DNA of 35,824 nucleotides from an uncultured Pelagibacteraceae bacterium (GTDB lineage: Bacteria; Pseudomonadota; Alphaproteobacteria; Pelagibacterales; Pelagibacteraceae). A program made the position numbers and the translations under genes. Numbering within the stretch: position 1 is the first letter of the stretch; each line of letters opens with the position of its first letter. Below are positions 302 to 2,972 of the stretch, piece by piece. Where the stretch lies: assembly GCA_902589795.1 (NCBI GenBank), contig CACIUJ010000008.1:1-35824 (forward strand), written 5' to 3'. Below the pieces are notes generated by a model, which had not been told where the DNA came from, searched no databases, and worked only from the letters and a program-made list of their open reading frames with translations.

Positions 302-622
302 TTATTTTGTAAGTTTTGTAGCACCAGTTTCTTGGTGTACTATTTTTCCATCTTTAAACTTGTAATAGGACATAACTGCTTCTTTATTACCGTCCTTAAA
401 ACTTGCAATGGCGTGCATGAATCCAACTTCGTTGTTTTCAAAAAGAATTCTCTCTTTATCAAGTTTTACATCTTTCATTCCAACCCATTTAACTACATCA
501 TCTTTGGACAATGTTTTTCCAGATGCGTGCATTAGAAATTTAAAATCATCGTGTATAATTTCTTTCGCACTGTTTGCATCACCTGCATTTACTACTTTAA
601 CTAATTTTTGTATTATAGACAT
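302..622 (-). CDS. Small NTF2/SnoaL-like domain protein
   Basis: A 106-residue soluble protein with no signal peptide or membrane segment. Its pattern is that of the NTF2/SnoaL-like cone fold: an N-terminal helix ([15 protein letters not shown]), a short helix with [23 protein letters not shown], then alternating strands ending in [20 protein letters not shown]. Such proteins can be steroid-isomerase-like enzymes, cyclases or non-catalytic binding proteins, and I cannot assign a substrate. A strong AAAGGAAA ribosome-binding site precedes the ATG. It lies between ffh and rpsP in what looks like one transcript, with 11-base and 19-base gaps. The fold call is by pattern only; the gene itself is convincing from its ribosome-binding site and position. 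Confidence 0.8.
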
Positions 623-633
623 ATTTTTCCTTT

Positions 634-1980
634 CTATTTCAGTTGATTAAATATTTCTGGGGGTATTCCTTCTTCATGACCACCTTTAGACATTTTTTTC
701 ATCATATTAGTCATCATTTTAAATTGCTTGAGCAATTTATTTATAGTGGCTGGATCTGCTCCAGAACCACCAGAAATTCTTTTTTTTCTTGAACCGTTAA
801 TAATTTTAGGATCCAATCTTTCTTCCTTTGTCATTGATAAAATAATTGCTTCATTAACTTTGATAATATTTTCATCTATATTTGCATTATCCATTTGTTT
901 TTTTATCTTTGAAACTCCTGGCAACATTGAAAGAACACCTTCCATGCCACCCATTTTTTTCATTTGTCTAAGTTGACTTAGATAATCTTCCATAGAAAAT
1001 GATCCTGTTCTTAAATTTTTTTCAGTTTCTTTAATTTTTTCTTCATCAAGATCCTGCGCTGCTTTCTCAACAAGAGAAACCACGTCTCCCATTCCTAATA
1101 TTCTATTAGCTATTCTGTCTGGATGAAAAATGTCTATTTCTTCAATTTTTTCTCCTGTTCCAATAAATTTAATAGGAGTGTTGGTAGCAAATTTCATACT
1201 CAAAGCCGCTCCACCCCTACCATCTCCATCTACTCTGGTTAAAATAATTCCTGTCAAATCAACTGCTTTCTTAAATTCTTGTGCAACATTAACGGCGACT
1301 TGACCTGTAAGAGAATCTGCTACCAAAATTGTTTCTATTGGGTTAGCCAAAGATTTGATCTCTTTAATTTCATTCATCATAGCAAGATCAACTTGAGTTC
1401 TTCCAGCAGTATCAAAAATTATTATGTCTGAGCCATTTAAAGTGGCAGCACTCAAAGCTCTTTTAACAATATCGATTGGTAATTGATCTTTAACGATAGG
1501 TAAAGTTTGGATTGAGTTTTTTTCACCTAATGTATTTAATTGTTCTTGTGCTGCTGGCCTGTATACATCTAAGCTAACAAGTAAAGATTTTTTATTATTT
1601 TTTTTTTCTAAATATTTTGCAATTTTAGCGGCAGAAGTTGTTTTTCCAGATCCTTGTAAACCAACAAGCATTAAGCAAGCTGGTGGTACTACATTTAAGT
1701 TTAATTCTGATTTAGCTTCACCTAAAATTTTAACAACTTCATCAAAAACAACTTTTACAATCATTTGACCTGGACTAGTTGATCTTATTATCTCCTGTCC
1801 AATTGCACGTGGTTTTATATTTTTTATAAGTTCCTTAACGACAGACAGGGCTACATCTGCTTCTAATAAAGCAAGACGTATTTTTGCTAAACCTTCGTCA
1901 ACTTGAGCTTCGTTAAGTGAAGGAGCTTTCTTTAAAGAACTAAAAATTTCTTCAAATTTATTTGTTAAATTTTCAAACAT
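634..1980 (-). CDS. ffh: Signal recognition particle protein Ffh (SRP54)
   Basis: GTPase subunit of the signal recognition particle; it binds hydrophobic signal sequences on ribosomes and delivers them to FtsY at the membrane. The 448-residue protein has the N-domain (about 1-100), the P-loop GLQGSGKTT at 107-115, DVYRPAA at 138-144, DTAGR at 190-194 and TRVDGDGRGG around 248-257. The C-terminal M-domain is methionine-rich, with MKKMGGMEGVLSMLPG and the SRP-RNA-binding SRKKRISGGSG motif. Length and motif order are normal. The start has only a weak GGAA about 10 bases upstream. That GGAA falls inside the closing helix of the structured intergenic element, which may matter for regulation. Its receptor gene ftsY lies about 1 kb away on the opposite strand. 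Confidence 0.98.
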   Translation of the reverse strand: MFENLTNKFEEIFSSLKKAPSLNEAQVDEGLAKIRLALLEADVALSVVKELIKNIKPRAIGQEIIRSTSPGQMIVKVVFDEVVKILGEAKSELNLNVVPPACLMLVGLQGSGKTTSAAKIAKYLEKKNNKKSLLVSLDVYRPAAQEQLNTLGEKNSIQTLPIVKDQLPIDIVKRALSAATLNGSDIIIFDTAGRTQVDLAMMNEIKEIKSLANPIETILVADSLTGQVAVNVAQEFKKAVDLTGIILTRVDGDGRGGAALSMKFATNTPIKFIGTGEKIEEIDIFHPDRIANRILGMGDVVSLVEKAAQDLDEEKIKETEKNLRTGSFSMEDYLSQLRQMKKMGGMEGVLSMLPGVSKIKKQMDNANIDENIIKVNEAIILSMTKEERLDPKIINGSRKKRISGGSGADPATINKLLKQFKMMTNMMKKMSKGGHEEGIPPEIFNQLK

Positions 1981-1988
1981 AATTCATT

Positions 1989-2086
1989 TATTCCAGCAAA
2001 AATCGCACTAGTGGGCGAACCCTCGCTGACTAGTGTCGATCCCTCTGTTTCCAGAGACACCGCAAAAACTTCCTTTTGCGGGAATA
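1989..2086. ncRNA. Candidate structured RNA / ffh leader element (4 helices)
   Basis: This GC-rich island (about 45% G+C over 1981-2105) folds compactly. P1 pairs 1989-1994 (TATTCC) with 2081-2086 (GGAATA). P2 pairs 2006-2012 (CACTAGT) with 2029-2035 (ACTAGTG) and carries an inner GCGA/TCGC hairpin at 2015-2018/2023-2026. P3 pairs 2043-2047 with 2052-2056. P4 pairs 2061-2067 (CGCAAAA) with 2074-2080 (TTTTGCG) and abuts P1. All listed Watson-Crick pairs are perfect. The strand is unresolved: three extra positions (1988/2087, 2005/2036, 2014/2027) can form G.U pairs only on the plus strand, while the P3 loop is a GAAA tetraloop only on the minus strand. It could be an ffh or dapF leader or a free small RNA. 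I do not see the conserved 4.5S SRP RNA loop motif. Confidence 0.65.
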
Positions 2087-2105
2087 GCAAGGAAACTACA
2101 TATTC

Positions 2106-2972
2106 ATGTTCAAAAAGTCAATAAATAAAGATAAAACTAAAAGTATGAATAATTTTGAAGCTTATAAAATGGATGGCCTGGGTAATGACTTCATTATATT
2201 TGATAATAGAAAAAAACCTATTTTGCTATCCAAAGAACAAATAATAAAAATTTCTGATCGAAATAATATTGGATGTGATCAAGTAATTTTTATTGGTAAA
2301 GATCATAACAATAATCCATTTTTAAAATTTTATAATTCTGATGGAAATGAGATATCAGCATGTGGCAATGGAAGTAGATGTGTTGCTTATTTATTAATGA
2401 AAGAAAAAAATAATAAAAAGATATCTTTAAAAACAAAAGCTGGAATTCTTGAAGCTAAAATAAATGACAACGATTTAGTTAGTATAAATATGGGTCAACC
2501 TAATTTTAACTGGAACAAAATACCATTATCACACAAAATGGAAAATAAAAATCTAGGATTAAAAATTAATAGCTCTGATGGGAAAGAAGTAATAGGTGGT
2601 TTCGCTTTAAACATTGGTAATCCGCATGTAGTTTTTTTTGTAGACGATATTAATCAATATAATATAAAAAATATTGGTCCTAAAATTGAAAACCACAATT
2701 ATTTCCCAGAAAAATGTAATGTTACTTTGGGAACTATAAAAAATAAAAAACATGTAAAAGTAAAAGTATGGGAAAGGGGTGCTGGTTTAACAGCAGCTTG
2801 TGGAACAGCAGCTTGCGCTACCGCAATTTCAGGAATATCTCTAAATTTAATTGAAAAGTGTGTCGATATAGAGTTTCCAAAGGGATTATTAAATATTGAA
2901 TGGAAGGAAGATAATAATATTTTTATGACAGGAAAAGTTTCTGAAATAAAAAAAATTACAGTTAGCATTTAA
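2106..2972 (+). CDS. dapF: Diaminopimelate epimerase
   Basis: Converts LL- to meso-diaminopimelate for lysine and peptidoglycan synthesis. Both catalytic cysteines sit in family motifs: C86 in GNEISACGNGSRC and C232 in GAGLTAACGTAACA. The N-terminal KMDGLGNDFIIFD block is also present. The 288-residue length is near the family norm of about 275. Two starts are possible. The ATG at 2106 has AAGGAAA at 2089-2095 (10-base spacing), while the ATG at 2145 (residue 14, MNNFEAYKMDG) agrees better with homologues but has no clear ribosome-binding site. The next gene, ftsY, starts 2 bases after the stop, so the two are surely co-transcribed. Confidence 0.97.
   Translation: MFKKSINKDKTKSMNNFEAYKMDGLGNDFIIFDNRKKPILLSKEQIIKISDRNNIGCDQVIFIGKDHNNNPFLKFYNSDGNEISACGNGSRCVAYLLMKEKNNKKISLKTKAGILEAKINDNDLVSINMGQPNFNWNKIPLSHKMENKNLGLKINSSDGKEVIGGFALNIGNPHVVFFVDDINQYNIKNIGPKIENHNYFPEKCNVTLGTIKNKKHVKVKVWERGAGLTAACGTAACATAISGISLNLIEKCVDIEFPKGLLNIEWKEDNNIFMTGKVSEIKKITVSI

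Follow-up and report, generated by a model that had tools for sequence, protein, structure and literature searches.

The gap between ffh and dapF in the DNA of an uncultured Pelagibacteraceae bacterium (35,824 nucleotides, referred to here as the window) contains an RNA element that is already catalogued as the ffh motif of 2009 and as Rfam family RF01793. Comparison with related genomes suggests that the catalogued hairpin, H3, is the last hairpin of a larger leader of ffh in which three hairpins stand in a row: H1 is followed by P2/H2, and P2/H2 lies upstream of H3, one base apart. H3 is followed by a conserved tail, and the first two hairpins draw on the same three bases. The element is nearly universal before ffh in Alphaproteobacteria. 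The features of the region are as follows, with positions given in the window.

1981-2105, minus strand: 5' leader of ffh with the entire element (H1, P2/H2, H3 and tail), filling the gap between the ffh start (1980, minus strand) and the dapF reading frame (2106, plus strand)
2097-2121, minus strand: putative promoter-like boxes TTGACT (2116-2121) and TATGTA (2097-2102), just upstream of H1
2060-2081, minus strand: H1 hairpin, CCGCAAAA...UUUUGCGG, whose 3' arm YGG (2060-2062) is shared with P2
2037-2062, minus strand: P2/H2, in which CGGU (2059-2062) pairs with AUCG (2037-2040) and encloses UCUCUG-GAAA-CAGAGG, with one G.G mismatch
2006-2035, minus strand: H3, with a 7-bp lower stem, a C.C mismatch (2028/2013), an A.C position (2027/2014), a 4-bp upper stem and the loop GGGU
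1993-2005, minus strand: tail after H3, CGAUUUUUGCUGG, with a conserved YG-N-U(U)-GG block at a fixed distance, taken from positional frequencies in 100 non-SAR11 and 72 SAR11 leaders
634-1980, minus strand: ffh, SRP protein, 448 aa
1-282, minus strand: rpsP, ribosomal protein S16, in the same operon direction as ffh
2145-2972, plus strand: dapF, with a likely start at 2145 rather than 2106

The minus strand of positions 1998-2050 matches RF01793 ('ffh sRNA') over the whole of the model (1-52 of 52) at 55.7 bits and an E value of 3.9e-8, where the gathering cut-off is 35 bits. This is the sole Rfam match within the whole 35.8-kb window; no riboswitch family was matched in the window and the search for tRNA and tmRNA found none. 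The bacterial small SRP RNA model (RF00169, SRP domain IV) found nothing in 1900-2200 at E values up to 1. The canonical SRP RNA of the same genome sits on another contig and the leader element is therefore not the SRP RNA. The initial annotation had set this gap apart from the 4.5S RNA, had proposed that it is a structured RNA linked to the SRP system, and had raised the possibility of a Pelagibacter motif named after ffh; all three points are borne out. The 2009 work of Meyer et al. on 'Candidatus Pelagibacter ubique' found the motif, depicted it as one bulged hairpin upstream of ffh, with a covarying stem and two near-invariant C residues in the bulge, and left its function open (PMC2704228).

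The same bulged hairpin was found here, 5' of ffh and on the ffh strand. Covariation was assessed by pair counts, and among 79 sequences across the class compensatory changes occurred in 11 of the 12 pairs of H3, with a covariation score of 0.402 compared to 0.137 for shuffled sequences. The upper 4-bp stem (2015-2018/2023-2026) had been overlooked in the initial annotation. The C.C mismatch is C.C in 77/79 sequences, and the position beside it is A.C in 47 but C-G, G-U, U-A or G-C in 25. The 2x2 internal loop drawn by Rfam and by Meyer et al. is thus better viewed as a single invariant C.C mismatch next to a covarying pair position. Two additions to H3 were dropped. An AUCG/CGAU extension is predicted in the window, but species that have AUCA in place of AUCG still have CGAU, and a GUGUC/GACAC pairing from H1/H2 to the base of H3 is present in one SAR11 family and absent from the other (both judged by eye).

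The gap is richer in G+C than its surroundings (44% in 2001-2125 and mostly 20-35% nearby), as had been noted, and on each strand its fold is more stable than those of dinucleotide shuffles, with z scores of -5.9 for the plus strand and -3.2 for the minus strand. Folding of the single sequence indicates structure but not strand, since both strands beat the shuffles. The strand, which the initial annotation had not fixed, was assigned from the relatives because of the bias of G-U over A-C: read on the ffh strand, P2 has 92 G-U cells and 1 A-C cell, and H3 has 23 G-U and 2 A-C cells. Similarly, H2 is capped by a GNRA or YNMG tetraloop in 90 of 125 cases on the ffh strand, compared to only 21 when read on the other strand. 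Judged by these counts, the RNA is on the minus strand, reads into ffh, and is the leader of ffh and not of dapF; an RNA on the plus strand was rejected on the G-U/A-C bias together with the linkage to ffh. The dapF gene itself probably starts at 2145, as most SAR11 homologues match from about residue 14-17 of the reading frame that opens at 2106, and the putative ffh promoter region would therefore overlap the apparent N-terminus of dapF (2106-2145).

All four pairs of complementary segments listed in the initial annotation are present (1989-1994/2081-2086, 2006-2012/2029-2035, 2043-2047/2052-2056 and 2061-2067/2074-2080), but its compact four-helix architecture with a closing stem is not supported: three of the four stems lie within conserved helices and the closing stem is not conserved. 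In the alignment of 72 unique SAR11 leaders the closing stem (1989-1994/2081-2086) has 53.2% of cells paired, compared to 54.0% for shuffled sequences and 50-56% for the majority of slid controls. A duplex test of within-species against cross-species pairing gave a fraction of 0.88 in one SAR11 family, which is no support, and of 0.004 in the other, a weak signal that is confounded by relatedness. The closing stem was rejected as a conserved feature on the basis of these pairing counts and the duplex test. It had been held that an absence of compensatory changes would count against a structured RNA; both P2 and H3 show such changes.

P2/H2 is a longer helix built around the 2043-2056 stem, and its outer pairs (2037-2040/2059-2062) take in part of the hairpin at 2060-2081 (H1). 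In the SAR11 leaders 7 of the 10 P2 pairs are changed on both sides and 96.3% of cells are paired, RNAalifold chooses P2 unprompted, and P2 is kept in many distant leaders. The YGG of the 3' arm of H1 forms the first three bases of P2, such that base 37 (the Y) pairs with base 15 in H1 and with base 62 in P2. The column pair 15-37 of H1 covaries in the 72 SAR11 leaders (63 GC, 8 AU and 1 GU), and the triplet of bases 15, 37 and 62 is G-C-G in most and A-U-A in eight. On the Ffh tree of SAR11, base 37 changed three times. It changed together with both of its partners twice independently, in a clade of seven and in leader L143; in leader L056 it changed to U, which still wobbles with both partners. 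Outside SAR11, leader L011 has A-U-A and leaders L016 and L086 have U-A-U, by inspection and with the P2 side counted in part. H1 was placed by energy folding in distant species, where the helices returned by an automatic finder were spurious, and in 93 of the 98 leaders with both helices placed in this way both H1 and P2 are able to use the shared base. Among the exceptions are leaders L022 and L026, in which the end pair of P2 is lost and H1 is kept. The two folds differ by a median of 1.3 kcal/mol in SAR11, and for the window sequence the H1 fold is preferred (87% compared to 11%).

The simplest reading of these patterns is that H1 and P2 are mutually exclusive over three bases because both use the YGG bases. 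A base triple at 15-37-62 instead of exclusive pairing is possible, and would suit the three base combinations unequally.

The distribution of the element was examined with RF01793, which detects 75/289 alphaproteobacterial genomes, and with a broader model (R1) built from a wider alignment, which detects 145/240. In a sample of the phylum R1 was found in 59 of 67 alphaproteobacteria and in 1 of 182 other genomes, the latter with a weak match. Of the newly found copies that were fetched, 39/40 are located 16-113 nt upstream of ffh on the same strand, and the remaining copy has no ffh in its stretch; the linkage to ffh persists with or without an adjacent dapF. The motif is present in 131 of 147 SAR11 genomes, and in the other 16 the assembly does not contain the beginning of ffh. 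The element also precedes ffh in Skermanella aerolata and Pelagibius litoralis; these belong to the Rhodospirillales, an order that the 2009 survey had listed as lacking the motif (PMC2704228). Downstream, rpsP is found after ffh in 28 of the 28 named loci with room for it, immediately adjacent in two. The reading frame that lies between ffh and rpsP in the window (302-622, minus strand, 106 aa) is SnoaL-like by eye. An alphaproteobacterial-type ffh with its leader was also seen in a contig filed as a cyanobacterium (L235, a record titled Phormidium willei BDU 130791 contig00170), which is probably a contaminant or mis-binned.

The tail runs from a C through a U-rich run in most species to S-S-S-UU-K-G-G. 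Outside SAR11, U occupies positions 10 and 11 in 91% and 84% of leaders, respectively, and 54% of tails have at least four U in nt 2-8, compared to a background of 4.9%; this run looks like a weak terminator. SAR11 tails read U-G-Y-U-G and are without the U-rich run (2.78 compared to a background of 2.40). A GC hairpin directly followed by a U-tract is found in about half of the non-SAR11 leaders and not in SAR11. Termination is unlikely to be general, given the lack of U-rich tails in SAR11 and of any terminator call in the window. A Y-1 G+1 step located 11-13 nt past H3 is present in 88% of non-SAR11 and 99% of SAR11 leaders. Hairpin-dependent pause sites have the same spacing of about 11 nt after the hairpin, and a pause is thus a candidate that would fit all species.

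Upstream of H1, the TTGAC box holds the same position in SAR11 and in other leaders. The TTGACT/TATGTA pair was not called in a promoter consensus scan of the window, where its spacing is short; by eye, the distance from the TTGAC box to the best -10-like hexamer is 13-14 nt in SAR11 and 17 in other alphaproteobacteria. In the window 25 nt separate the end of H3 from the ffh start; across leaders the distance from H3 to the start codon ranges widely (18-292 nt), which disfavors a model in which H3 itself blocks the ribosome site. Direct masking of the ffh ribosome site through a UUCC/GGAA pairing was also rejected, as this pairing occurs only in some SAR11 species. The longest separation, 292 nt, was seen in L002 1-3052, where an apparent small reading frame ends just before ffh.

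We propose that the element is a cis-acting leader with two states that would tune the expression of ffh, and of rpsP with it, through the H1/P2 junction and a pause or terminator formed by H3 and the tail, and we regard the chances that this is correct as evenly balanced. RNA polymerase would start a few bases upstream of H1, which would be the first hairpin to form. Once the strand after H2 emerges it could take over the shared YGG and complete P2, and because of this capture the leader would have two folds that are nearly equal. H3, in which the C.C mismatch is invariant, would then act with the fixed-spacing tail as a pause or a weak terminator, the outcome of which would set the amount of ffh mRNA (SRP protein) and of downstream rpsP mRNA, and terminated or processed leaders would give rise to the small RNA of about 110 nt in relatives. 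The pausing or termination, the regulation and the signal that would tip the balance (the level of Ffh/SRP or a ribosomal protein) are the parts of this scheme that we infer, while the element, its strand and place before ffh, the covariation of P2 and H3, the overlap of H1 with P2 and the conservation of the tail are shown by the sequences. Counting against the two states, H1 and P2 overlap by only 3 bp, and the end pair of P2 is broken in L022 and L026. The wider claim, that competition between H1 and P2 sets a pause or attenuation across the class and so controls the SRP protein in cis in Alphaproteobacteria, is tentative and, in our view, somewhat doubtful.

Several other explanations were weighed. 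The element may be a trans-acting sRNA that is made from the ffh promoter, ends after H3 and has its targets elsewhere, as the Rfam type 'sRNA' implies. A small RNA was detected in S. meliloti (sm5, for which about 108-120 nt is predicted) and, according to Meyer et al., in metatranscriptomes (PMC2704228), the authors of a study on Bartonella bacilliformis leave leader versus sRNA open (PMC7717549), and the tail is U-rich in many species. This explanation does not account for the strict linkage to ffh despite other rearrangements; moreover the sole conserved unpaired seed is the tail, which lies beyond the normal end of a terminator, and SAR11 is without the U-tract. We consider a trans-acting sRNA rather unlikely, though worth keeping in mind. 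A constitutive 5' UTR structure that senses nothing and serves only to stabilize or punctuate the ffh mRNA is unlikely as well: its near-universal, single-copy presence in a housekeeping context and the stable GNRA/YNMG tetraloops on the ffh strand (90/125) would suit it, but the strand shared by two helices, the C.C mismatch and the tail are conserved beyond the needs of a stabilizer.

Two further explanations turn on a protein that binds the leader. A ribosomal protein encoded in the operon (S16, or L19, which lies further on) might regulate its own synthesis, as suggested by rpsP following ffh at every named locus with room, and leaders of this kind are common. However, the ffh-rpsP order is also found in bacteria without the element. 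We consider such autoregulation very unlikely. Meyer et al. found rpsB and rpsL leaders in the genome that gave the ffh motif (PMC2704228). In the remaining explanation H3 mimics helix 8 of the SRP RNA, such that Ffh would bind it and repress its own synthesis. The 5' strand of H3 contains GUCAG, the 5' strand of the symmetric loop of the SRP RNA (the SRP RNA of this genome has GGUCAGGACGGAAACGUAGCAGCC), and an A.C pair is found in both. A mimic that binds Ffh is unlikely in the extreme because ordinary base pairs replace the look-alike loop in many species: C-G, G-U, U-A or G-C stands at the A.C position in 25/79 sequences, and C-G in most of the newly found copies, and the mimic was rejected on these grounds. 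Meyer et al. also saw no resemblance (PMC2704228).

The leader can be compared with several known systems. RF01793 covers the same H3 hairpin on the same strand, in the same place before ffh and in the same organism group, but the model stops at H3, omits H1, P2/H2 and most of the tail, and treats the A.C position as an unpaired bulge. The sm5 RNA of Sinorhizobium meliloti (Valverde et al. 2008) was reported from an array signal on the ffh strand in the dapF-ffh intergenic region, with a predicted size of 108-258 nt and with a sigma-70 promoter and a terminator also predicted (PMC2573895). It is alike in being a dapF-ffh intergenic RNA on the ffh strand; unlike the present element, its description is confined to rhizobia and offers no covariation (PMC2573895). 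An ffh leader RNA was seen by RNA-seq in B. bacilliformis (PMC7717549), and sm5 and this RNA are independent evidence of a transcript in relatives. The bacterial small SRP RNA (RF00169) shares the SRP context and the GUCAG stretch, but it has no match in the leader. Leaders with a his-type pause or an intrinsic terminator share the hairpin followed by a pyrimidine-G step at about 11 nt, or by a U-rich tract in many species, whereas the ffh leader has a C.C mismatch in the stem and a conserved GG past the step, a comparison made at the level of sequence. Literature searches for later functional work on the ffh motif gave nothing beyond listings in Bartonella and Mesorhizobium. We found no mention of the larger architecture, of the revised core, of the tail or of a near-universal distribution in the earlier literature examined, in which sm5 was compared by its text.

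SRP is essential and the control of its protein level is poorly understood. According to the 2009 survey, regulation of SRP protein levels had by then been described at neither the transcriptional nor the translational step (PMC2704228). The leader is a good candidate for a control region of ffh, and the fuller architecture, the C.C core, the tail and the distribution allow precise single, double and triple mutations to be designed for testing ffh regulation. The results also suggest that the Rfam model RF01793 be extended. If true, the leader with two states would be a means of cis control of SRP protein synthesis in Alphaproteobacteria.
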